Assembly (NCBI RefSeq): GCF_040183065.1
Contig: NC_091132.1
Span: forward strand, 90,778,606 to 90,842,605
Length of the DNA stretch: 64,000 nt
Source of the DNA: Periplaneta americana
Taxonomy: Eukaryota > Arthropoda > Insecta > Blattodea > Blattidae
Direction of reading: 5' to 3'
In this document: positions 2,684-59,187 of the stretch, in pieces
Numbering within the stretch: position 1 is the first letter of the stretch
How the letters are laid out: every line of letters begins with the position of its first letter
The notes under the pieces: model-generated
The model's input: only the letters and a program-made list of their open reading frames with translations
Told to the model about the DNA's origin: nothing
Database searches by the model: none
Translations under genes and position numbers: made by a program

Positions 2684-2804
2684 CATCAGACTAGGGCTGA
2701 GGACGGAGCGGTTCGGTTCGGAGCAGTTACTATGACGTCATTACTCGGTTGAACGAGTACAGTATCGAGTACAAATTTGTAGCGGCAGATTTAAAATTTA
2801 TATA

Positions 2805-2910
2805 GACTGACACCCGGTTTCACCAATCTTCGTTATATTTTTAACGAGTCATTAATTTACTTAACGATACGATTACCATTTTTCGCGTTTCACCAAGTAT
2901 CGTTAGGAAA
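2805..2910 (+). repeat. Harbinger left TIR and subterminal repeat
   Basis: The outer TIR motif GTTTCACCAA followed by TCGTTA recurs at about 2886-2907. The duplicated motif is a candidate binding site for the Myb-like partner or the transposase; binding is inferred. Confidence 0.75.
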
Positions 2911-2994
2911 ATGACGTCGTTATATCCGTCGTTAATTTATTAGGCAGTCTTTCGTACCATTAAAGTTATAACGACACGTTTATCTGTTGTCAAG

Positions 2995-4074
2995 ATGGCT
3001 GCCGCTTTTGATGCCGAACTTCTTTATTTAGAATATCTTGAAGATGGTGAACTTGTAATAGAAAATTATAGACCAAGAAACAGTGATTTTGAGGAACTAG
3101 ACGAAATTAAATTTCACGAAAGATACCGGCTAAAGAAGCATGTGGTAGAATTGTTATTGGAACAAATTGAAGATAGGTTAGAATATAATACGGACAGAAA
3201 TAATCCACTCACGCCCATTCAACAGTTACTGTTAGCACTACGTTTTTATGCGACTGGCAGTTATCAACTTGTTATAGGTGATGTAAACGGTGTTTCAAAA
3301 TCTACAGTCTCCAGGTATGTACGGAAAATATCTTACCTACTTGCTTCATTACGACCACAATACATCAAATTTCCGACAGGTGATGAAATTCCGAGTGTAA
3401 TTCAAGATTTCTATAATATTGCACAATTCCCTGGTGTCATTGGGACAATAGATTGTACACACATTCCTATTTTATCACCTGGTGGTAATATGGCAGAAAT
3501 TTACAGAAACAGGAAGTCCTACTTTTCTTTAAATGTTCAAACCATTTCTGACTCTCAGCTGTTCATAAGGGATATAGTTGCCAGATGGCCAGGCTCTGTC
3601 CATGACAGTACTATTTTTCAAAGGTGTGGGAGGAGAATGCTATTTGAGACAGGACGTATAGGACGTGGTTTATTATTGGGTGATAGTGGTTACCCATTAA
3701 AGCCCTATTTAATGACTCCACTCTTGAATCCAAGAACTCAAGCTGAACAGAATTACAATAATTCGCATATTGCTACCAGAAATACAGTGGAAAGGCAATA
3801 CGGGATTTGGAAGAGAAGGTTTCCAGCCTTAAATTTCGGCTTGAGAACAAATATCAACACAGCTATGGATGTAATAGTTGCAACAGCAGTATTACACAAT
3901 ATTGCTTTACAAACCAATCATGAAGACCCTCCAGATGATGTCACTCTTGAGCAGTTTATGTTCAACAGGGAGAGATGGCAGTTCGAAGATGTTCCAGTCC
4001 CTGAAATTGTTAATGGAGGAGAGGGAGGTGCTATTGCAGTCAGAACAGCAATAATAAACAATCATTTTGCATAG
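2995..4074 (+). CDS. Harbinger DDE transposase (HARBI1-like), intact
   Basis: 359-aa open frame without stops or frameshifts. The N-terminal third has a helix-turn-helix-like stretch (GDVNGVSKSTVSRYV, about residues 98-112). The DDE_Tnp_4 nuclease core follows: D153 in GTIDCTHIP, D204 in WPGSVHDST, D230 in GDSGYP and E266 in NTVERQYGIWKRRFP. This matches the motif order of HARBI1 and PIF transposases, which nick at TIR ends and act with a Myb-like protein. The length fits the family (about 350-450 aa). The start was chosen because ATG at 2995 lies 190 bp inside the TIR and the frame has no homology upstream. The gene converges on the Myb gene. Intactness suggests recent mobility. The satellite array begins about 290 bp after the stop. 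Confidence 0.93.
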   Translation: MAAAFDAELLYLEYLEDGELVIENYRPRNSDFEELDEIKFHERYRLKKHVVELLLEQIEDRLEYNTDRNNPLTPIQQLLLALRFYATGSYQLVIGDVNGVSKSTVSRYVRKISYLLASLRPQYIKFPTGDEIPSVIQDFYNIAQFPGVIGTIDCTHIPILSPGGNMAEIYRNRKSYFSLNVQTISDSQLFIRDIVARWPGSVHDSTIFQRCGRRMLFETGRIGRGLLLGDSGYPLKPYLMTPLLNPRTQAEQNYNNSHIATRNTVERQYGIWKRRFPALNFGLRTNINTAMDVIVATAVLHNIALQTNHEDPPDDVTLEQFMFNRERWQFEDVPVPEIVNGGEGGAIAVRTAIINNHFA

Positions 4075-4359
4075 TAAGTTCGGCAAAAATAACATGTACT
4101 TTATTTATTTACTTATTTATAGTGGAAAACTATCATACATTTATAAGAAGTTTCAATTCAATTTGGCCTACTTCTCCTAAAACCAGTAGAAAAATCATCC
4201 AACTTTGAAACAATTTCAAAAGCAATAACAGAATTGAATACATAGTCGCATGAAAATAACAAGGAAATCAATGGCGAAACAGTATATCAATATTTTTCTA
4301 TAAGACAGCAGTAAAATAAATCTACACTACAATTAAACACTTAACCAGCAGAAAATAAT

Positions 4360-7358
4360 AATAGTACAAATTACATTGGCGTAACACTCGACACTAAACG
4401 TAATTCGAACAACCAAATAGATAAAGCACAGGAAGAATCTGCCATTGAAGACCTATCTAACAATATAACTAACTTATTTTCAATTACTTTCTGTGATATT
4501 ATGGCAGAAGCTGATAGGAAAGAGTAATAACACAAATTACATTGGTATAACACTCGACAGTAAACTTAATTGAAACAACCAAATAAATAAAACACAGGAA
4601 GAATTTGCCATTGGAAACTAACTACCCACCCATCTAACAATATAACTAACTTATTTCCAATTACTTTCTGTGGTGTTGTGGCAGAAACTGATAGAAAAGA
4701 GTAATAACATAAATTACATTGGTATAACACTCGACAGTAAACTTAATTGAAAACAACCAAATAAATAAAACACAGGAAGAATTTGCCATTGGAAACTAAC
4801 TACCCACCCATCTAACAATATAACTAACTTATTTCCAATTACTTTCTGTGGTATTGTGGCAGAAACTGATAGAAAAGAGTAATAACATAAATTACATTGG
4901 TATAACACTCGACAGTAAACTTAATTGAAAACAACCAAATAAATAAAACACAGGAAGAATTTGCCATTGGAAACTAACTACCCACCCATCTAACAATATA
5001 ACTAACTTATTTCCAATTACTTTCTGTGGTGTTGTGGCAGAAACTGATAGAAAAGAGTAATAACATAAATTACATTGGTATAACACTCGACAGTAAACTT
5101 AATTGAAAACAACCAAATAAATAAAACACAGGAAGAATTTGCCATTGGAAACTAACTACCCACCCATCTAACAATATAACTAACTTATTTCCAATTACTT
5201 TCTGTGGTGTTGTGGCAGAAACTGATAGAAAAGAGTAATAACATAAATTACATTGGTATAACACTCGACAGTAAACTTAATTGAAAACAACCAAATAAAT
5301 AAAACACAGGAAGAATTTGCCATTGGAAACTAACTACCCACCCATCTAACAATATAACTAACTTATTTCCAATTACTTTCTGTGGTGTTGTGGCAGAAAC
5401 TGATAGAAAAGAGTAATAACATAAATTACATTGGTATAACACTCGACAGTAAACTTAATTGAAAACAACCAAATAAATAAAACACAGGAAGAATTTGCCA
5501 TTGGAAACTAACTACCCACCCATCTAACAATATAACTAACTTATTTCCAATTACTTTCTGTGGTGTTGTGGCAGAAACTGATAGAAAAGAGTAATAACAT
5601 AAATTACATTGGTATAACACTCGACAGTAAACTTAATTGAAAACAACCAAATAAATAAAACACAGGAAGAATTTGCCATTGGAAACTAACTACCCACCCA
5701 TCTAACAATATAACTAACTTATTTCCAATTACTTTCTGTGGTGTTGTGGCAGAAACTGATAGAAAAGAGTAATAACATAAATTACATTGGTATAACACTC
5801 GACAGTAAACTTAATTGAAAACAACCAAATAAATAAAACACAGGAAGAATTTGCCATTGGAAACTAACTACCCACCCATCTAACAATATAACTAACTTAT
5901 TTCCAATTACTTTCTGTGGTGTTGTGGCAGAAACTGATAGAAAAGAGTAATAACATAAATTACATTGGTATAACACTCGACAGTAAACTTAATTGAAAAC
6001 AACCAAATAAATAAAACACAGGAAGAATTTGCCATTGGAAACTAACTACCCACCCATCTAACAATATAACTAACTTATTTCCAATTACTTTCTGTGGTGT
6101 TGTGGCAGAAACTGATAGAAAAGAGTAATAACATAAATTACATTGGTATAACACTCGACAGTAAACTTAATTGAAAACAACCAAATAAATAAAACACAGG
6201 AAGAATTTGCCATTGGAAACTAACTACCCACCCATCTAACAATATAACTAACTTATTTCCAATTACTTTCTGTGGTGTTGTGGCAGAAACTGATAGAAAA
6301 GAGTAATAACATAAATTACATTGGTATAACACTCGACAGTAAACTTAATTGAAAACAACCAAATAAATAAAACACAGGAAGAATTTGCCATTGGAAACTA
6401 ACTACCCACCCATCTAACAATATAACTAACTTATTTCCAATTACTTTCTGTGGTGTTGTGGCAGAAACTGATAGAAAAGAGTAATAACATAAATTACATT
6501 GGTATAACACTCGACAGTAAACTTAATTGAAAACAACCAAATAAATAAAACACAGGAAGAATTTGCCATTGGAAACTAACTACCCACCCATCTAACAATA
6601 TAACTAACTTATTTCCAATTACTTTCTGTGGTGTTGTGGCAGAAACTGATAGAAAAGAGTAATAACATAAATTACATTGGTATAACACTCGACAGTAAAC
6701 TTAATTGAAAACAACCAAATAAATAAAACACAGGAAGAATTTGCCATTGGAAACTAACTACCCACCCATCTAACAATATAACTAACTTATTTCCAATTAC
6801 TTTCTGTGGTGTTGTGGCAGAAACTGATAGAAAAGAGTAATAACATAAATTACATTGGTATAACACTCGACAGTAAACTTAATTGAAAACAACCAAATAA
6901 ATAAAACACAGGAAGAATTTGCCATTGGAAACTAACTACCCACCCATCTAACAATATAACTAACTTATTTCCAATTACTTTCTGTGGTGTTGTGGCAGAA
7001 ACTGATAGAAAAGAGTAATAACATAAATTACATTGGTATAACACTCGACAGTAAACTTAATTGAAAACAACCAAATAAATAAAACACAGGAAGAATTTGC
7101 CATTGGAATCTAATTACCCACCCATCTAACAATATAACTAACTTATTTCCAATTACTTTCTGTGGTGTTGTGGCAGAAACTGATAGAAAAGAGTAATAAC
7201 ATAAATTACATTGGTATAACACTCGACAGTAAACTTAATTGAAAACAACCAAATAAATAAAACACAGGAAGAATTTGCCATTGGAAACTAACTACCCACC
7301 CATCTAACAATATAACTAACTTATTTTCAATTACTTTCTGTGGTGTTATGGCAGAAGG
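4360..7358. repeat. 178-bp tandem satellite, about 17 units
   Basis: Unit starts recur near 4364, 4531, 4709 and then every 178 bp to 7201. Interior units are almost identical, while the first (about 167 bp) and the last are more diverged, the pattern of recent unequal amplification from the centre. Each unit contains a 64-codon minus-strand frame, but it has no similarity to a protein I know and is explained by repetition. The array sits entirely inside the Harbinger, downstream of its transposase. Confidence 0.95.
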
Positions 7359-7604
7359 TGATATGTATAATTCTGGCAAACATATTTTATTGCCTTGTTA
7401 GGCTATGTTAAAAATGTTGGTTTTAACGTTGTGGGAAAACCTGATGTCTACTCCCATTAGCAACTAATACTAATAGAAAACATATTTCCTCTAATGTAGC
7501 CCTGATTTTTCCTGAAAGAATAAGCTTTAAACAGCTCTCCAGTAAAATTAGGAAAATGAACATATCAGATTATGCCATAACATTATAGTTAAGCTATCTT
7601 GAAC

Positions 7605-10600
7605 TTAAGTAATTGTGGCAAGTTTCCTTTCATAATATAATCTCTTGGCTTCATAGGCTTTGTATTTTTCTTCTTGAACCTTAAATTTTAGAGCCCTTAA
7701 TTCATCGTCCTTTTTCTTTGTATCATTTAGTACCTCACATTCAAGCTCAATTACTTTTTTCCGTTCTTCTGCCAAAGAAGCTATATTTTTTCTACACATC
7801 ACAGTTTGACTTTCTTTACGTTTAAGGTTGGGCCTATTCCTTGAAAGAAAAAGACGTGGAGTATCTGTTTGCGACTGGGTTGGTTGCTGTATGTTGCTAG
7901 TTGAAGGCACAGGTTCACTGGCTGCTTCTGGCTCTAATGTTGGCGATGTTGGTCTGGTGATCAGCTGGCATTCGAGAACAGATTCTGGCATCTCACATAG
8001 AATTTCAGTTGATAGTGGAAGCAGAATCTTTGGATCGTCTTCTGATACTATGCAGTTTGTAATGTTGTGATCTACTGAACAAACAAATATGTGATTGTAT
8101 GTTAGCAATGAGTGACTATGTACTAATTTATTATCATGATGGAATAAATTATTCACTTAAAATTGAACGATAGAATGTAATACGAAACATGCCTATTTTT
8201 TAATTCATTATAAAATGGAATACTTCTGTATTACAACACTTTTTTGTACCGGTAGTTAAAATAACATATACGAGTATAACTGAATGAATGCCAAAGTAAT
8301 CCTCCTGTATAAGGTCAGTTTTATTCCAAAAGATAAGAATATGTATATTATTGTTTGTTGACTTGGTTAAATATATTAAATCATTGCTTTCAAATTTAAA
8401 AAAAAAAAGTATCATGAAGTATCTTGAAGGTAATTTACAAAATAAAGCTTGAATCCCTGCATGCTTAAATTTGGAAACAGTGTTGTATAATAAAAGAAAT
8501 TTGTACACCCTCGTGTATTTGTCACATGATTATACCCTTAAGGCCAAATAGCGTATTTACTATATCAATACCGTTAATATCACTATTTCTCCACTTCTCC
8601 CTGTGTTACTTCCATTCAGCTATGCTTTAGACTACTCCCTCACTCTCCGGAAGTTAGGTTATGTAAGTTACTTATACAATAAATAATTAAACAACGCCAT
8701 GTCAGAGACAATACACTATGTGAATGATGCAACACTTGCACGTCAAGAACTATAGTATTGATAAAGTAAATATTAACCACAAATAGATTTAAATGTATTA
8801 TGACAATAATTTATATTATTAGCCTATAGCACAAACATTAAAGCAAAATATAGGATACAAGGTAATTAGGCTAAGTAGTAAGCATTGATCAGGCCATCTT
8901 CCTGCAATAGAGGTCCAGGGCACATAGGTCTATATTACCAAATAGAGGCATTTCTCCAGAAAAGCTACACCAAACAAGGCAGACTACATTTTATTTTGCT
9001 TCTGTGAGGAGTGTATAGTGATCAACACGTGGCTTTAGTTTGCAGGCACAAATATCATTACAATCATTTGTTACTTATTTGTGTTGCTTGCAGCATTGTA
9101 GGATCCCCTACTTCTTACAATAATATTCGAGAGGTCCAGGACGCAATAGGCTACTAGGGAAACAGACCATTTCACTAGCAATTTTTCCTGGACCACTTCC
9201 ATGTTATGTTGGTAATTAGTAACAAGTGAAGAGGTAAACAACAGTTCATTAGAATATTATACAGGTATTAAACGATTTTGTTTGTAAGTACTTCTGGTTT
9301 CAAACTAAAACCACCTGTTTGTCACCATATACACTTCGCAGAAGCCAGTGAAGCAAAATAAAATTGTGTCTTCATTTGTGTAGCTTTTATGGGAGATATG
9401 TATTTTAATTAAATTTCAACGTTTTTTTATTGATATATTGAAAGCCTATTTATATTCGGTAATTTCATAGAAGACGGGCACTTGGTTGAATATAGTAAGT
9501 ATTACCAACTTCTTTATTTCAGAGTTAAATGTTAGTGATCTTTTAGTGACTTTTACATGTTAGTTCTAGGTTTTTGTACTAGGTGTCGCCGTGATTTTCT
9601 TTTAATTTTATTGGTTATAGTTGTCATTTGTTCTAGAATTTTCGTTAATTTTGAATGGATAATGACGTTATCAGTTGTTCTTGGTTGTTTGACGTGAGTG
9701 GTGTTATGTTGTGTCCGATGGCTAAAGCTATTGAAGGTTTCTCATTTTCTGATTTTTGTGATTTTCTTTCGATTTGATTAGTTATAGTTATCATTTATTC
9801 TAGAATTTTCATTAATTTTTCATGGATAATGACGTTGTCCTGTTGTTCTCTGTTGTTTGACGTGAGTGGTGTTACATTGTAGATTTGTCTGCATTTGTCG
9901 AATGGGCATCATCATGCTTACGAAAAGCCACTTTTCAGTGCCAATAATTTATTTTATGTGCACAAGGTTGGAATTTTGAAGTAAGAGGGAAAGGAAGGAA
10001 ACCGTGTTATGAAATTTATCTATTAAATTTTGTGTCGATTTTGGTTTAGTTCTTTCGCTGGTGAAGAAGGATTGTGTTGAATGGTGAGAAGAAAACTGTT
10101 TTTCTGTGTGTATGATTTGAGGCTTTCTCGGCGTTGGTTCGCTAATATGTTTTCGCGGGATATCAGCCGAGTTAAGATTTTGGAATGCTCCAAGCTTTCG
10201 ACTGCTATCTCTGCAGCCATCTTCAGGGAAGTGATGTCCGAACAGAAAGTCGAAAGGTTATATAGATGTTAGGCTGTCTCAGGTGAAACGGGATTGGTTG
10301 GCGGATCGGCCAATCCGGGGCCGGGAATTGTCATCGCTCGTAAGCTCCGCCCCTCCCGGGATTCCTGCGTGAAGTTTGGCGGGCGGCGAGCCCTGTTCCG
10401 CCGGTTGGAATCGGTTGCCGTCCTCGGTCCGTGATCTTCATGACCTTGATTATAAGAGGGCCTGAGTTGGTCTAAGGCCGGTGTCCATGCCTGACTGAGC
10501 TGGAGTCCACTGTCTCTGTTAAAGTTGTTTTTCTCCAGCTTGATCTCTATGGCCTCCTTGATTGTACGATCCCAGTAGTGGCTTGATTTGTTAATGACCT

Positions 10601-12943
10601 TGGTGTGGTCAAACAGTATTTTATGCTCCTTTTCTATGCTGTGTTGCGCCACTGCAGATTTTTCCGGGTAATACAGCCTCAGGTTCCTCTTATGCTCTTT
10701 GATTCTGTCTTCTATTGTGCGGCCAGTCTGCCCTATGTATACTTCGCCACACTCGCATGGAATCTTGTAAATCCCTGGAGTCCTTAAGCCCTGACTGTCT
10801 TTAACCTGGCGTAGATGACTCCGGATTTTGCTCTGTGGTTTATGGATGGTTTTGATATTAACCTTCTGGAGGATTCTGCTTATTTTGTGTGACACGATCC
10901 CGCAGAATGGAATGAAAGCTTTCTTTGTCGGTTCTTCCTTGCTGTCTAAGTCTATTGTGTTACATCTCGTGGTAACTTGTTTGAGGGCTTTGTTGATGTC
11001 TCTCCGGCTGTAGTTGTTTTGTCTCAAACAAGTTACCACGAGATGTAACACAATAGACTTAGACAGGAAGGAAGAACCGACAAAGAAAGCTTTCATTCCA
11101 TTCTGCGGGAGCGTGTCACACAAAATAAGCAGAATCCTCCAGAAGGTTAATATCAAAACCATCCATAAACCACAGAGCAAAATCCGGAGTCATCTACGCC
11201 AGGTTAAAGACAGTCAGGGCTTAAGGACTCCAGGGATTTACAAGATTCCATGCGAGTGTGGCGAAGTATACATAGGGCAGACTGGCCGCACAATAGAAGA
11301 CAGAATCAAAGAGCATAAGAGGAACCTGAGGCTGTATTACCCGGAAAAATCTGCAGTGGCGCAACACAGCATAGAAAAGGAGCATAAAATACTGTTTGAC
11401 CACACCAAGGTCATTAACAAATCAAGCCACTACTGGGATCGTACAATCAAGGAGGCCATAGAGATCAAGCTGGAGAAAAACAACTTTAACAGAGACAGTG
11501 GACTCCAGCTCAGCCAGGCATGGACACCGGCCTTAGACCAACTCAGGCCCTCTTACAATCAAGGTCATGAAGATCACGGACCGAGGACGGCAACCGATTC
11601 CAACCGGCGGAACAGGGCTCGCCGCCCGCCAAACTTCACGCAGGAATCCCGGGAGGGGCGGAGCTTACGAGCGATGACAATTCCCGGCCCCGGATTGGCC
11701 GATCCGCCAACCAATCCCGTTTCACCTGAGACAGCCTAACATCTATATAACCTTTCGACTTTCTGTTCGGACATCACTTCCCTGAAGATGGCTGCAGAGA
11801 TAGCAGTCGAAAGCTTGGAGCATTCCAAAATCTTAACTCGGCTGATATCCCGCGAAAACATATTAGTGTTTTTCTGTGGTTTAAAGGAATTATTTACTGA
11901 ATTTTCTGTAGAAGTTAAGATGTAATAAGTGTTCGAAGAGAATTTCATTTAGTGTAAACACGTGGTATATTTATGCAAAGTTGACTGTACGACAAAGTGT
12001 TGGTTTAGTTCTTTGTTGCCTGCATGGTTTAAGTTTAGATTGCCTTAAAGCTGGTGTCATTTATACTGGAAGTGAAGAGGTTGTCGTTGAAGACGTCGAT
12101 GAGAATTGAATTTTATTTGATAAGATGATAAATTATTATGTTTTGTTTTATGTTTTAGTGATTTGTGGGAGTAAAGTGCGGACGAAAACTGCCAGAAAAG
12201 TACTACCAACTATGAAGTTCGAATCCCACCAAACACCATAAAAATCAAAGATGAAAAATTAAACATATTTTCATTTTTTGAAGGGCTTGTTCTTCTTTAA
12301 AAATATGAATATATGTTTGATTTTCCATCTTTGATTTTGTGATGTCTGGTGACATTTGAACTTCATAGTTGGCAGAACGTTTTGGTAGTTTTCGTCAGCC
12401 ATGTTGGATTTTGCCCGTCTTCTAGGAAATTACCTTATATTCTAACGGGAAGTAGGCCCACGTGTCCTGGACTTCTATTGCGAGAAGATGGCTCCTGGCC
12501 GATGATTACTACATAATTACCGGATGAAACTTACCTTCTTGATAAAAAGCATCAGAATCTTTCGTGTTGTGAAGGGGGTTGATCTGGTCCTTCAATAAAG
12601 AAAGAAGTTTCATGCTGCTCTCATCCATTACATTGCTTGTATTTATAGGGCCACCTCCAGTCTTCATACGTTCCACCTTCTCGTCTGCCAAGCTCTTCTT
12701 ACATTTTCTTTTAAAATTGTCATAAAATGACTTCAGTTGTTTCACATTTCGCTTTGCGACATTGGGATATGAATTGAAATCACTACAAAGTTTTTCCCAA
12801 GTAGCTTCTTTCTGTCTTAGCGTAGTCCCGTCTGTCTTCTTATTTTCAATTATACATACATACTTTTGTAGAATTTCTATAAAGATTGATTTCTCTGTTG
12901 CTGCAAAATTACTCCCTCGCTGTCTTTTCTGTGGATGTTCCAT
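7605..12943 (-). CDS. Harbinger Myb/SANT-like protein, two exons
   Basis: Exon 1 is 12943-12535 and exon 2 is 8074-7605, with a 4.46-kb intron. The donor reads GAAG|GTAAGT and the acceptor TTTGTTTGTTCAG|TAG. The join is in frame and gives 292 aa with no stop. Residues about 10-82 form a Myb/SANT-like domain of the Myb_DNA-bind_5 type (E-K-x7-L-x2-Y, IENKKTD, TWEKLCSDFN, VKQLKSFYDNFKRKCKK). The middle is Pro/Thr/Ser-rich. The C-terminal 70 residues are Lys/Glu-rich and probably coiled coil (EERKKVIELECEVLND region). In known Harbingers the Myb-like protein imports the transposase into the nucleus and binds the TIRs. Splice sites are inferred, but reading-frame continuity strongly supports them. 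The intron carries a PLE palindrome. Confidence 0.85.
8157..8890. other. Intron sequence of the Harbinger Myb gene
   Basis: AT-rich with no coding signal on either strand that I can identify. It lies between Myb exon 2 and the TIR-flanked insertion that starts near 8891. Confidence 0.5.
9591..9875 (+). repeat. Two-copy direct repeat
   Basis: About 9591-9705 and 9762-9875 are diverged copies of one sequence (motifs TTCTAGAATTTTC, TGGATAATGACGTT and GACGTGAGTGGTGTTA occur in both). The role is unknown; it may be untranslated sequence of an inserted element. Confidence 0.75.
10269..11013 (-). pseudogene. PLE GIY-YIG endonuclease, left arm
   Basis: The PLE-like sequence reads from about 11013 down to the stop at 10269, about 245 residues. 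The open frame continues upstream to 11180, but there it crosses the palindrome centre and reads the other arm antisense. It contains the cysteine-bearing CECGEVYIGQTGR motif (GIY-YIG core), then IEDRIKEHKRNLRL, a conserved KSAVAQHSIEKEHKI segment with the catalytic-region His and Glu, and a Gly/Arg/Pro-rich tail. This is the C-terminal nuclease part of a PLE; the reverse transcriptase part is missing, so it is a 5'-truncated copy. PLE endonucleases nick target DNA to prime reverse transcription. Confidence 0.85.
11014..11739 (+). pseudogene. PLE GIY-YIG endonuclease, right arm
   Basis: Mirror copy of the left-arm frame, differing at only a few residues (for example FCGS versus FCGI before VSHKISRIL). 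Open from about 11014 to the stop at 11739. It has the same GIY-YIG motif and the same C-terminal tail. It lacks the reverse transcriptase domain and any identifiable promoter. Confidence 0.85.
11781..11815 (+). ncRNA. Hammerhead-ribozyme-like motif in PLE terminus
   Basis: CTGAAGA, one unpaired T, stem II GGCTGC/GCAGTC (one G.U) with a 7-nt loop, then GAAA, a one-pair stem III with GC loop, and CTT as the NUH site. Flanking CTTCC and GGAG can form stem I. The left arm holds the mirror copy at about 10207-10241 on the minus strand. Hammerhead motifs are known in PLEs; activity here is inferred. Confidence 0.6.
12178..12400. repeat. Foldback (MITE-like) hairpin
   Basis: About 90-bp arms with roughly 85% match: GACGAAAACTGCC..., ACTATGAAGTTC and ATCAAAGATG on the left, mirrored on the right. 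No clear target duplication. It lies at the right edge of the intron insertion. Confidence 0.75.
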
Positions 12944-13013
12944 GATTTAAATTACGCACTCACGAAGTCACGATAATTCAGGCAAAGACAACTTTACAAC
13001 GATACAAATTCAG

Positions 13014-13060
13014 GAGGCCGTGATCCTATGCAACCAAGAGGCCGTGATCCTATGCAACCA
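13014..13060 (+). repeat. 24-bp tandem duplication upstream of the Myb gene
   Basis: GAGGCCGTGATCCTATGCAA occurs twice, 24 bp apart, 70-115 bp upstream of the Myb start codon on the minus strand. It could affect the promoter; this is inference. Confidence 0.7.
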
Positions 13061-13159
13061 ATCACATTCGCAATTCCAAAGTGATGGTTGTATGAAAAAT
13101 ATGATATGCAAGATACAAATAAGAAATCTCTAAGTTAACAAACGCACGTTAATTTAAAG

Positions 13160-13276
13160 GAAACGGGCTTCGGTGAAATGGCCGTCTTTTAACGATGACT
13201 TTAAAATTAAAAGAACCGTTTGTTAGCATATCGTTTTGGCTCATTTAAAGAAGCTTGGTGAAACTGGGCATGAGTC
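13160..13276 (-). repeat. Harbinger right TIR and subterminal repeat
   Basis: Inverted counterpart of the left end: outer GGTGAAACTGGGC and an inner copy around 13169-13200 (GGTGAAATGGCC...TAACGATGAC). Confidence 0.75.
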
Positions 13277-13941
13277 TATTTTAGAACGTACTTTGAAAGT
13301 GAAACCAAGCGTTTTTTAAAAGGGTTGTAGTAAAGCACTTTCGCTTTGTCAATTGACGAGAAAAAAGTGCTTCTCTTCATTGCAAAATGGTAGTTGCAAA
13401 ATTCATTTGCGTGATTACAACTATTTGCGAAATTATTTTGTATGAAAGGACTATTTAACTTTCAGTGTTGTTATATATGACAGACGAAATAAAATTTATA
13501 AAATAATTTATAATACAAACAACTAATAAATTAACATGTGAGGTAAACGTTAAACGCTGCAGCTAATTAAAAAAGAAGATAGAAAGAAACGAGCTCCATG
13601 AAGCGCTGCCTGAAACACTTAAAAATAACACACAGAATTATTTACTATTACGGAAAGTGGATAAAATAATCAAGAAAACGTGGAATCTTAAACTGAAGAA
13701 CATAGTGTTACTTATTTTATAACATTACTAGCCTTCAATACCACCATGTTCTCTTTGGTGAAGAGTAATGTTATTGATAAATTAAAGTAATTAGGTAACA
13801 TAATTCATAGAAATAAATACAAATAAAATGATGACTGCTGAGGTAACACAAATCCAATAAACACAAATAGGAGAAAAATAAAACGCACTTCCTTTTTAAC
13901 ATATTTTAATATTAATCAAACACTCTAATATGATGATTATG

Positions 13942-13995
<54 letters not shown>

Positions 13996-14005
13996 GTATT
14001 AGTAG

Positions 14006-14077
<72 letters not shown>
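13942..14077. repeat. Mirrored trinucleotide microsatellite
   Basis: (AAT)n at about 13942-13995 is followed after a 12-bp spacer by (ATT)n at about 14008-14077, so the two halves form one long hairpin-capable inverted repeat. Chance poly-Ile and poly-Leu frames across it are not genes. Confidence 0.95.
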
Positions 14078-14099
14078 GTATGTATAGTAATATGTTCAG

Positions 14100-14215
14100 A
14101 CTGTCAGTGTTCATTAGGTCCACTTGACAGGTCATATAATAGGATGAACTCCTCTTCAATACTAGATGCCTTTCAGCCCGATAATTTGTCCCGCAGCAGA
14201 AAATATTTAAATACA
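14100..14215 (-). pseudogene. hAT transposase C-terminal relic
   Basis: In one minus-strand frame the sequence reads IFSAAGQIIG, resembling the hAT C-terminal signature in which an (I/V)FSxAG motif precedes the final helices. A frame change then gives an acidic stretch (SSIEEEFILLY) like the usual end of hAT proteins. Too short and broken to be functional. It supports the hAT identity of the surrounding element. Confidence 0.5.
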
Positions 14216-14899
14216 CCAGTACCTATGTTGTTCTCTGCTAGAATTAAGTAAAACACGTGAACTCTGTTCGAACGTTTGTACTGACCGGTAACGGCTACGG
14301 TTAACCGAGTAACTTCGCTGCTCCGCTGCCAAGCACAAAAACCGATAGAACCGAGTACTGTTATTGCAAGTTATCTTGAACCTTACATCGCCTAAGTCTG
14401 TCTTTCGAACTGCTCGGTACGGCATGTACTCATCAACGTAACGGCACGGCATTGCAAGAATGCCCTTCCCTCGGGTAACGTGACTCTTTTCAGAAAACGT
14501 TGGTTCTTAAACTTTACGGCTCTCTACTATAAAAGAACTTGGTTCATGACATACATCATTATCTCACGACACTCGGGTTTTGAGAGGAGAACATGATTTC
14601 GTAGCAGGTTTTAAATAACCTGTAATGAGTAAGTATTTAAATATAATAGTGTGTACACTCCTCCCTCATCCGGGCTGAGGACCGGCAATGGCGGAGATAC
14701 CACAGCTATTTCTATACATTATAACTTATAGGTCTACATAACTTACACCTAGAGCTGATATGTATATATTCTTATAACAATATTTTACAGGCTTATTATT
14801 TGAATTTACATTAATTTACAATTATATACAATCCATATCCCTATCATTGCTGCCATCATCGTCATCGTCTTCATCGCTTGGTCCAAAATTAGTTATTAT

Positions 14900-15360
14900 T
14901 TCGTCAATGGCATCATCCATTCGGAATTATTTTCTTAATTGTAGGTACTACTTTCTGAACAAGATAGAATTCTTCGATTGTATCCCGAATGACATGTTGA
15001 TCGAAATCGTCCATTTCAACTTTACACAAGTCCTGGAATGAAGTAATATGTTTTGCAGAACTATAACAAAATAATAACTTACAACAGTCATTCATTATGT
15101 CGCTCACAGTACACACACTATTGTACATAACTATTATAGCAATAATTTCTAAACATTACATACCTATTCTTTCTCGGAGTAGTGTGAGGTTGATTTGGTT
15201 GTAATGCAATATTCGTCTTAATTCTCTTTACGGAACTAATACTTTTGCCAGAGTATTTAGCCGCTCTCTCATATTCCTTATCAAGAGGTGCCATCAAACA
15301 TTTGTTTAATTTTTCTTCCTCTCAACATTTAATTATATTTGCGATAACTTCTCTTTCTCC
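14900..15360 (-). pseudogene. Decayed transposase N-terminus, family uncertain
   Basis: About 15360-15165 reads a helix-turn-helix-like segment (YERAAKYSGKSISSVKRIKTN) ending TPRKNR just before a GT donor-like site. About 15128-14905 reads a helical segment (VEMDDFDQHVIRDTIEEFY then VPTIKKI). The order of HTH, basic linker and DDFD..V.R.T...FY resembles N-termini of IS630/pogo-type insect transposases. No catalytic domain follows. It may be nested in the hAT or captured by it. Confidence 0.4.
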
Positions 15361-15650
15361 GATGTGGATAACTGCGTTGCTTTTTCTCCGCGGTGGTGTG
15401 ATTTCACCATAATTACTACCCTGTGGTTGTGCTCCATGTAAACATTACTGGTACGCAGTGAAGGAAATAGTACTATGTTTCTTGACAAGAGATTATGATG
15501 CGGAGCATGCGCAAACAACTCAGTTGGCTCCACCCACGTTACGCGCTTCCTTCCCTCCGCCCTTCTGTCACCGCTCAGAAAGTTCAAGATAACTTGCAAT
15601 AACAGTAACTCAACAGTTCTACTCGCTCAGTCCCCAGCTCTACATCAGAC

Positions 15651-49612: not shown

Positions 49613-51808
<2,196 letters not shown>

Positions 51809-56007: not shown

Positions 56008-59000
56008 ATCACCACGGCATGGCGCGTCCTCAGGTTGCGGATCGAGGAGACGGCCTCCAGATATGGAGGGTAGCTGTGAATATATTGAATAAGCAGTCGC
56101 GGACAGCCGATGAGGGGTGGTCCTCCAGCTTGGGGGATGGGCGAAGGGCTAACAACCCATCACCGTAAAAAAACAGCTTGTTACGAATCCTTCAAATAAG
56201 CCTCGGAATGGGACTGATTCTCTGGTACGACCACAGCAAAGGAATAAGGTTTTGAGATTTGGTACTTGGAATGTTACAAGTCTATATAGAACAGGAGGGG
56301 TAACATTAGTAGCGAAAGAACTAGCTAGATATAGAATAGACTTTGTGGGAGTACAAGACGTTAGGTTAGATGGGAACGGCATAACGCAAATAGAAGATTA
56401 TTTGTTGTATTATAGGGAAGGAAATTATAATCACCAATTAGGAACAGGATTCTTTATTCATAAAAGAATAAAATCAGCAGTAAAAAGATCGAATTTATCA
56501 GTGATAGGTTATCGTATTTAGTACTTACGGGTAGATGGTGCGATATCGTAGTTATAAATGCTCATGCCCCTACGGAAGAGAAAGACGACCATATAAAGGA
56601 TAGCTTCTATGAGGAATTGGAACAGACTTTTGATCAGTTACCTAGATATCACATGAAAATTTTATTCGGGGATTTCAATGCTAAAGTAGGACGGGAGGAT
56701 ATCTTTAAACCGACTATTGGAAAAGAGAGCCTACACATAATTAGTAATGACAATGGAGTTAGGTTAGTCAACTTTGCCACATCAAAAAATTTAATTGTCA
56801 AAAGTACAACATTCCCCCATAAGGATATACATAAACATAATTGGACTTCTCCAGATGGATTGGCACATAACCAGATAGATCACATCTTGATAGATAAACG
56901 AAGACATACTAGTATAGTAGACATTCGTACCTTCAGGGGGGCAGACTGTAATTCTGACCATTATTTGGTAATTGGTGAACTAAGAGAAAAACTATCAGTA
57001 GCCAAGCGAGTAGAGCAACAAGTTAATATTAGAAGATTCAATATTCCGAAATTAAAGGACGAGGAAACTAAGCAAAATTATCAGGTCGAAATGTCAAATA
57101 GGTTTGACGTATTAGCAAGTTCCGACGAAGTTGAGGAAAAGTTAGATGTTAATAGCATGTGGGAAAATATTCGAGATAATATCAAAATTGCAGCTGAACA
57201 GAGCATAGGTTATTATGAAACTAAGAAAAAGAAACCGTGGTTTGATGAAGATTGTTGCATGGTAGTAGAAAAAAGGAAACAGGCTACATTAAAATTCTTA
57301 CAGGATCCAGTTGATGCGAATAGAGATAATTATTTCAATAAACGACGGGAAGCAAATCGTACGCTTAGGAATAAAAAGAGAGATTACTTGAAGGAAAAAC
57401 TGAAGGAGATACAAACAAATAGTAAAAATAAAAAAATTAGAGATTTATATAAGGGCATAAAAGAATTCAAGAATGGATATCAGGCAAGGGTAAACGTGAT
57501 CAAGGATGAGAATGGTGACTTGCTTGCAGACGCTCATTCAATCCTTAACAGATGGAAAAAATATTTTGGAGAACTCCTAAATATACATAGGCCAAATAGA
57601 AATGATCGGGACGAAATTGAAATACAAACTGCTGAGCCATTTATACCCCAACCCACACTTTGTGAAGTCGAAATTGCGATAGAAAATCGGAAAAATTATA
57701 AGTCTTCAGGTATCGATCAAATTCCAGCAGAATTAATACAAGAGGGTGGAAGCGCATTATCTAACGAAATTTATAAGCTTGTACTTGCTATTTGGGAAAA
57801 GGAGATTGTACCAGAACAATGGAAGGAGTCCATAATCGTACCTATTTTTAAGAAGGGGACAAGACTAACTGTAATAACTTTCGAGGAATATCACTTTTGT
57901 TAACGTCGTACAAAATTTTGTCCAATATTCTTTTAAGAAGATTAACTCCATATGTAGATGAAATTATTGGGGATCATCAGTGTGGTTTTAGGCGTAATAG
58001 ATTAACTATTGACCAGATATTTTGTATTCGACAGATAATGGAGAAAAAATGGGAGTATAAGGGTACAGTGCATCAGTTATTCATAGATTTCAAACAGGCA
58101 TATGACTCGGTTAAGAGAGAAGTTTTATATGATATTCTCTTTGAATTTGGTATTCCCAAGAAACTAGTTCGATTAATTAAAACGTGTCTCAGTGAAACTT
58201 ACAGCAGAGTTCGTATAGGTCAGTTTCTGTCAGATGCGTTTCCAATTCACTGCGGGCTAAAGCAAGGAGATGCACTATCACCTTTACTTTTTAACTTTGC
58301 TCTAGAATATGCCATTAGGAAAGTCCAGGATAACAGAGAGGGCTTGGTATTGAACGAGTTACATCAGCTTCTTGTCTATGCGGATGACGTGAATATGTTA
58401 GGAGAAAATCCACAAACAATTAGGGAAAACACGGGAATTTTACTGGAAGCAAGTACAGAGATAGGTTTGGAAGTAAATTCCGAAAAGACAAAGTATATGA
58501 TTATGTCTCGTGACCAGAATATTGTAGGAAATGGAAATATAAAAATTGGAAATTTATCTTTTGAAGAGGTGGAGAAGTTCAAATATCTTGGAGCAACAGT
58601 AACAAATATAAATGATATTCGGGAGGAAATTAAACACAGAATAAATATGGAAAATTCCTGTTATTATTCGGTTGAGAAGCTTTTATCATCCAGTCTGCTG
58701 TCAAAAAATCTGAAAGTTAGAATTTATAAAACAGTTATATTACCAGTTGTTCTTTATGGTTGTGAAACTTGGACTCTCACTCTGAGAGAGGAACAGAGAT
58801 TAAGGGTGTTTGAGAATAAGGTGCTTAGGAAAATATTTGGGGCTAAGAGGGATGAAGTTACAGGAGAATGGAGAAAGTTACACAACACAGAACTGCACGC
58901 ATTGTATTCTTCACCTGACATAATTAGGAACATTAAATCCAGACGTTTGAGATGGGCAGGACATGTAGCACTTATGGGCGAATCCAGAAATGCATATAGA

Positions 59001-59187
59001 GCGTTAGTTGGAAGAACGGAGGGAAAAAGACCTTTGGGAAGGCCGAGACGTAGATGGGAGGATAGTATTAAAATGGATTTGAGGAGGTGGGATATGATGA
59101 TAGAGACTGGATTAATCTTGCTCAGGATAGGGACCAATGGCGGGCTTATGTGAGGGCGGCAATGAACCTCCGGGTTCCTTAAAAGCC

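Follow-up and report, generated by a model that had tools for sequence, protein, structure and literature searches.

A two-gene PIF/Harbinger element nested in a hAT-like copy of the American cockroach genome: evidence for recent mobility

The window analysed here, a stretch of 64,000 nucleotides from Periplaneta americana, very probably holds a recently mobile, low-copy, two-gene PIF/Harbinger element that lies in an older hAT-like copy and was later lengthened by a minisatellite and a nested transposon. The element (2811..13270; 10,460 bp, as delimited by comparison with its sister copies) brings together a DDE_Tnp_4 transposase, a Myb/SANT gene, terminal inverted repeats (TIRs) and a 3-bp target site duplication (TSD), which bears out the identification as a Harbinger made in an earlier, sequence-only reading. 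It is a young and complete member of a well-known class and of a kind already known, and the understanding of PIF/Harbinger elements is left unchanged by it. Going by its sequence, it keeps its full coding capacity, and its family probably had autonomous members in the recent past.

Its organisation is like that of two-gene PIF/Harbinger elements such as zebrafish Harbinger3_DR, for which portions of two papers describe a DDE transposase accompanied by a Myb/SANT protein, TIRs, a 3-bp TSD and repeated motifs inside the ends (PMC9710019; PMC2836001). By analogy with zebrafish and rice, as treated in these same portions, the Myb/SANT protein would bind the subterminal motifs near each TIR and guide the DDE transposase both into the nucleus and to the ends of the element (PMC9710019; PMC2836001). 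Movement would be by cut and paste, and insertion would duplicate 3 bp (TNA) in a partly palindromic target.

Two genes and three close copies

The transposase gene (2995..4074, plus strand) was recognised from its ORF, its Pfam domain and its catalytic residues. As had been claimed, it encodes an uninterrupted DDE transposase of 359 aa with D153, D204, D230 and E266 in place, and the DDE_Tnp_4 match is strong (Pfam, E=4.9e-30). A helix-turn-helix match at residues 71–118 is weak (E=0.0023) and falls under the family cut-off. A sequence search of the PDB gave just two weak matches, to an RNA helicase (E 0.18 and 0.19), and comparison with viral contigs found no relative of the transposase. The gene with the Myb/SANT (MADF-like) domain lies on the minus strand, with exon 1 at 12535..12943 (PF13873; domain match and exon joining) and exon 2, including the stop, at 7605..8074 (exon joining and sister copies). 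The two exons join in frame across GTAAGT...CAG, just as the sequence-only reading had it, to give a protein of 292 aa with a Myb_DNA-bind_5 match of E=5.6e-17. The intron (8075..12534, minus strand) measures 4,460 bp, against ~1.47 kb in the sisters, and its predicted splice signals are identical in all three copies.

The search for further copies that had been proposed, carried out on the 3.23-Gb assembly from which the window comes, turned up two more full-length sisters, 4,975 and 5,485 bp long, at unlinked sites referred to here as C6 and C2, so the worry that there might be no other copies falls away. Both sisters are 99% identical to the window copy over the left 1,640 bp, and the near-identity that had been looked for holds outside the array and the insert described below, where divergence is 0.6–0.8% (28/4553, 37/4535 and 30/4528 sites in the three pairs, three segments summed). 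Close copies number only three, the best 40 candidates having been scored per search. This close family is not a crowd of older copies lacking the structure, another outcome that had been considered, although older, broken relatives do exist. The frames of both genes are open in 3/3 copies, the C2 transposase being one residue longer through loss of its stop. Coding differences among the copies amount to 11 nonsynonymous and 8 synonymous codons, which is too few for purifying selection to be demonstrable. The flanks of the three copies have no mutual match at E<=1e-5; together with the two sisters, their low divergence, the open genes and the kept splice sites, such non-homologous flanks argue for recent mobility of the family.

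Ends, target sites and the enclosing hAT-like copy

The ends were first placed at 2805 and 13276, which is wrong: 6 nt of target DNA had been included on each side, and the true ends are 2811 and 13270. The outer GACTGA/TGAGTC was excluded as a part of the TIRs and taken as target DNA, because the sister copies are flanked differently and the target DNA read in the empty sites is GACTGAGTC-like. The TSD of the window copy is TGA at 2808..2810 on the left (from sister copies and empty sites) and at 13271..13273 on the right (from sister copies and the window sequence). C6 likewise has TGA/TGA and C2 has TAA/TCA, with one mismatch, whereas mPing has TAA/TTA. According to part of PMC2836001, the target preference of PIF/Harbinger elements reaches 3 bp past the TSD on both sides; among the three sites available here, the targets GAC-TGA-GTC and CAC-TGA-CTG are similar, and the C2 site is a poor fit.

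The matching TIRs of the sequence-only reading are real, if short and imperfect, with 20 of the first 25 positions identical in the end alignment (CACCCGGTTTCACCAATCTTCGTTA at 2811..2835, plus strand; TGCCCAGTTTCACCAAGCTTCTTTA, as reverse complement, at 13246..13270, minus strand). The outer 40 nt align with a score of 36, where the best of 1000 base-shuffled pairs scored 30, and the outer 200 nt with a score of 42, which was reached by 2/1000 shuffles. Another alignment scored 52, the best of 300 shuffles reaching 44, but it starts in the flanking target DNA and overstates the TIRs. Duplication of the subterminal motif TTTCACC was also read correctly: it stands at 2818 and 2888 on the plus strand and at 13172 and 13257 on the minus strand, and its only remaining matches inside the Harbinger, at 10282 and 11720, are both within a nested insertion. 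The second left copy belongs to a subterminal repeat (2887..2905, plus strand; motif search) that is exact in three of six aligned older relatives and one base off in two more; the second right copy, found by the same kind of search, occupies 13172..13178 (minus strand). With at most two mismatches, GTTTCACCAANCTTC occurs four times in the 64 kb, against 0.66 expected.

Around the Harbinger lies a hAT-like copy (2692..15642; 12,951 bp with all nested DNA), recognised from its TSD, its ends and family copies. It is bounded by exactly matching 8-bp TSDs (CATCAGAC at 2684..2691 and 15643..15650), and its ends, TAGGGCTGAGGACGGAGCG and TAGAGCTGGGGACTGAGCG, match when compared by eye. The best 40 of 1213 hAT-family candidates all match across the joined flanks of the Harbinger, and the insertion site is uninterrupted at base level in 5/5 relatives fetched. 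Since the hAT-like element encloses the Harbinger and its empty relatives are 93–94% identical to the joined flanks, it predates the Harbinger, in agreement with the idea of an older hAT host. No paralogous empty site was found for C6, where 2/2 candidates were its own flanks; for C2, a single place spans the joined flanks, with only 77% identity (best 40 of 1053 candidates).

Growth of the window copy

The core of ~5 kb resembles that of several Medicago elements, as given in part of PMC2213677. The swelling to 10.5 kb, in spite of which it was first suggested that the window copy might be autonomous, has an explanation, being secondary and specific to this copy. The copy is twice the normal length because an internal short repeat multiplied and other mobile elements landed inside it. 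Unlike elements of the Harbinger3_DR type, it holds an internal minisatellite of 178-bp units (4451..7363; repeat analysis and sister comparison), located between the two convergent genes. This array has 16.4 units, against 2.4 and 5.4 in the sisters, and its units 2–16 show 0–2 differences per 178 sites from the reference unit.

The Myb intron harbours an insert of 2,977 bp (9458..12434), a DNA transposon whose family is repeated, with TIR GGTAATTTC(A/C)TAGAAGACGGGCA and an 8-bp TSD, TTATATTC, at 9450–9457 and 12435–12442. The insert is missing from both sisters, in which the empty site was read at base level, and no other copy carries it among those compared (best 40 candidates per search), so that within this set the swollen form has no known descendant. 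Inside the insert sits a palindromic, putatively Penelope-like (GIY-YIG) insertion (10109..11866; domain match and TSD), flanked by a 12-bp TSD, TGTTTTTCTGTG, at 10097–10108 and 11867–11878. The palindrome is ~1.7 kb long, its two arms score 22.2 and 22.9 bits with GIY-YIG PF01541, for which the cut-off is 22.6, and the two ORFs scanned gave no reverse transcriptase match.

The window copy very probably entered the older hAT-like copy as a ~5-kb element and was afterwards lengthened by expansion of the minisatellite and by the nested DNA transposon, itself with its palindromic Penelope-like insertion, all of the gain falling outside the coding exons. Nesting runs to four layers (hAT-like, Harbinger, DNA transposon and Penelope-like), each with its own TSD, and the copy illustrates how an element may double in length without loss of coding capacity.

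Tandem repeats inside the element and in variable number are likewise described for Medicago MtPH-A6-4 in part of PMC2213677, with 2–35 units of 60 bp and members of 431–25,288 bp; the same part reports nested insertions. MtPH-A6-4 is a plant element with subterminal 60-bp repeats, in contrast to the 178-bp units found here between two convergent genes. It is conceivable, although rather unlikely, that this very low-copy insect two-gene Harbinger is mobile at present and that its array lengths (2.4, 5.4 and 16.4 units) record rounds of gap repair after excision. Were this so, it would parallel the Medicago case in an animal and provide a natural setting in which to test Harbinger self-copying. 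As an intact two-gene element with an empty site and sisters, it is in any event a candidate for work on how Harbingers transpose in animals.

Present activity and rival readings

Is the window copy now a dead passenger, rendered inactive by private amino-acid changes and by disturbed splicing over the enlarged intron? The chances of this are not far below even, and it is compatible with the preferred account of a recently mobile family, the two probabilities not being exclusive; the frames would still be open only because the copy is young. Set against both sisters, it has residues of its own at positions 20, 114 and 280 of the transposase and at position 229 of the Myb protein. Among aligned, partly redundant loci, L20 and Y114 each occur in one only, the window's own; of the 33 loci having a residue at position 114, 30 carry D or E, and N280 is found in 4/26 loci. 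Y114 lies near the end of the weak helix-turn-helix match, the intron has grown from ~1.47 to 4.46 kb through an insert holding the 1.7-kb palindrome, and no other insert-bearing copy is among those compared. Against this, the copy keeps its catalytic residues and splice signals as well as its TIRs and subterminal motifs, and multi-kb introns are ordinary in large genomes. In view of the private changes and the lack of another insert-bearing copy in that comparison, the window copy can be called no more than possibly autonomous at present.

Two further explanations bear on the nature of the copies rather than on their vigour. Domesticated, host-serving genes come to mind since part of PMC9710019 describes the domestication of PIF transposases in cockroaches, and the vertebrate pair HARBI1 and NAIF1, likened here from its description in that source, shows the same two-protein partnership but consists of host genes. 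The two cockroach domesticated genes reported there are, however, without surrounding TIRs or TSDs (PMC9710019), whereas the window element has TIRs and a TSD, along with empty sites and dispersed copies nearly identical to it, hallmarks that contradict domestication and make it most improbable. Segmental duplication instead of transposition would suit a set of only three close copies, but is hardly to be believed and was dropped in view of their unrelated flanks, the TSD that each has of its own and the empty sites for the window insertion. The recently mobile Harbinger family thus remains the preferred explanation.

A search with the Harbinger terminal pattern gave 190 sites, those read being the copies named here. 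A 230-bp right-end family was at one time taken for a MITE family. That idea was dropped, because the three members fetched, which have GGCCGG at their termini and fall outside this pattern, align with one another over at least 1.35 kb (94–98% alike) and hold stretches 67–70% identical to the transposase region, which makes them a related Harbinger family.

Coding capacity and ends

The PIF/Harbinger copy in the window is complete in both its ends and its coding capacity. Its transposase gene (2995-4074) is an open ORF of 359 aa which, as the sequence-only reading had claimed, is intact and carries the acidic residues D153, D204, D230 and E266; in a profile search it matches Pfam DDE_Tnp_4 across the full model (E=4.9e-30). 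The Myb/SANT gene lies on the minus strand, and the claim that its two exons (12943-12535 and 8074-7605) join in frame to encode 292 aa is borne out; the splice signals are AAG/GTAAGT at the donor and TTCAG/TAG at the acceptor, with exon 1 matching Myb_DNA-bind_5 (E=5.6e-17). The genes run toward each other, each with its start close to one TIR. Such two-gene elements are the standard PIF/Harbinger form (PMC9710019, PMC9179366), and Medicago truncatula Harbingers with internal tandem repeats of variable number and with nested insertions have already been published (PMC2213677). No description of this particular family turned up among the papers listed in the literature searches.

Because its sister copies and target site duplications (TSDs) show where the element stops, it is bounded here at 2811-13270 (10,460 bp). 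The window copy and its two full-length sisters, C6 and C2, have in common CACCCGGTTTCACC...GGTGAAACTGGGCA and differ in the flanks outside, the TSDs being TGA on both sides for the window copy and for C6, and TAA and TCA for C2. The ends first proposed, 2805 and 13276, reach 6 nt too far into target DNA on each side, a near-palindrome GACTGAGTC. The TIRs agree at 20 of the 25 outermost positions. Aligning the outer 40 nt of both ends gives a score of 36, against a maximum of 30 in 1000 base shuffles, and the outer 200 nt give 42, a score reached by 2 of 1000 shuffles; an earlier test, whose score of 52 exceeded all 300 shuffles (44 at most), relied on an alignment that began in the flanking target DNA. 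For PIF and mPing, target preference extends 3 bp past the TSD on each side, according to PMC2836001; the cockroach sites, three in number and one of them a poor fit, are only suggestive of such an extension.

The duplicated subterminal motifs noticed earlier are TTTCACC, which occurs twice at each end. Across six aligned older relatives the inner left occurrence is exact in three, one base off in two and lost in one. The Myb protein may recognize TTTCACC as its binding site; by analogy with the zebrafish and rice elements, as described in PMC9710019 and PMC2836001, Myb binding and two-protein cut-and-paste would be expected. Near the right end, a perfect 24-bp tandem duplication (13014-13061) is present in the window copy and C6, and C2 has a 24-nt gap there.

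Sister copies and empty sites

The sequence-only reading had proposed looking for further copies with the TIRs, near-identity among them and empty sites as a check on its view that the element may be, or recently was, autonomous, and all three are found. The left 1,640 bp, used as a query, gives at least 51 matches, and among the best 40 of 864 candidates scored, two besides the window copy match along the whole query at 99%: C6 (4,975 bp) and C2 (5,485 bp). No flank homology among the three was detected at E<=1e-5. Summed over three segments, with the tandem array and the intron insert left out, the window copy differs from C6 at 28 of 4553 sites and from C2 at 37 of 4535, and C6 from C2 at 30 of 4528; 17 differences are private to the window copy, 10 to C6 and 19 to C2. 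Both reading frames are open in all three copies and the splice sites are identical, the sole change in frame length being one additional residue in the C2 transposase through stop loss. Leaving that stop out, 19 codons differ, 11 changing the residue and 8 silent, too few for selection to be judged. These comparisons indicate that the family has been mobile recently.

Joining the two window flanks over one TGA gave a 366-nt query for a search of the assembly from which the window comes. This query is matched across the junction, at 93-94% identity, in all of the best 40 of 1213 candidates, and all five places fetched and aligned are continuous without a Harbinger; one (L057) has the same ACTGA/GTC context as the window, and another (L055) differs by one base in the TGA stretch. 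Since the joined flanks match in so many places, the host, called an old hAT in the first reading, belongs to a repeated hAT-like family and keeps an intact 8-bp TSD. A search for a paralogous empty site of C6 gave none, the two candidates being its own flanks. C2 is located in a different repeat, and among the best 40 of 1053 candidates one place matches across its whole joined-flank query, at 77%. The hAT-like host also holds a weak twister-P1 ribozyme match (14652-14701, minus strand; 29.5 bits against a gathering score of 67.2, E=0.0059). Genome-wide, the best 62 of 107660 candidates include at least 35 matches at E<=0.001, one of them over the cut-off and none at the window site; motifs of the twister type may be scattered through the genome.

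Growth of the window copy

Why does this copy reach 10.5 kb? Its 178-bp minisatellite, lying between the genes, grew to 16.4 units (2.4 in C6, 5.4 in C2), and a 2,977-bp DNA transposon arrived in the Myb intron. Compared with a reference unit, units 2-16 show 0-2 differences over 178 places, and this near-identity points to a very recent expansion of the array; the 16.4 units may instead be an effect of assembly. Unit 1, compared without gaps, is off at 89 of 178 places, probably through an indel shift.

The DNA transposon (9458-12434) has an 8-bp TSD, TTATATTC, and short TIRs, GGTAATTTC, and is missing from both sisters, as read at base level. Its left 651 bp recur in 39 other places at 98-99% (best 40 of 1857 candidates, the window included), probably reflecting a recent burst of its family. 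All these matches stop at window position 10108, just before a palindromic, putatively GIY-YIG (Penelope-like) insertion (10109-11866, 12-bp TSD), whose two candidate GIY-YIG-coding arms stand head to head, 97.6% identical over 10142-11866. The order of insertion is hAT-like element, Harbinger, DNA transposon, Penelope-like element.

Autonomy and wider relatives

In favor of autonomy stand the complete coding capacity and ends of the window copy and the recent movement of its family. Against present activity count its private residues, its larger Myb intron and the fact that, among the copies compared, none bearing its insert was seen; neither side is decisive. The residues unlike both sisters are transposase 20, 114 and 280 and Myb 229. 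Among 41 aligned loci, partly redundant and including the window's own, position 114 has D (17 loci), E (13), F (2) or Y (1), with a gap in 2 loci and nothing in the other 6; position 280 has S (13), K (9) or N (4), with a gap in 2 and nothing in the other 13; and L occurs at position 20 in one. The lone Y114 and L20 therefore come from the window's own locus.

Older, broken copies are also present, for example from C16:163563309 onward. At C7:120170421, Myb exon 1 and the right end are preserved at 93% DNA identity; a left end was looked for in the 6.5 kb fetched there, and none was found. Exact matches to a 19-nt terminal pattern number 190 in the genome, against 0 for the reversed control; these are pattern matches, only the named copies having been read. 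A separate related family has 230 bp of the right end in common at about 78% (best 40 of 768 candidates), its three fetched members being 94-98% alike. DDE_Tnp_4 with open frames is seen at many other genome places, with several sets of identical score (best 150 of 2642 candidates), which suggests that other Harbinger families have been recently active in this genome.

Elsewhere in the window, two plus-strand regions carry long ORFs. An open 494-aa ORF at 50087-51571 has a DUF659 domain (E=1.2e-12) and presumably resembles a hAT-type transposase. At 56617-59153, two adjoining ORFs of 428 and 418 aa, of which the latter has a reverse transcriptase domain (E=5.4e-34), probably make up a LINE-like element interrupted by a frame break.
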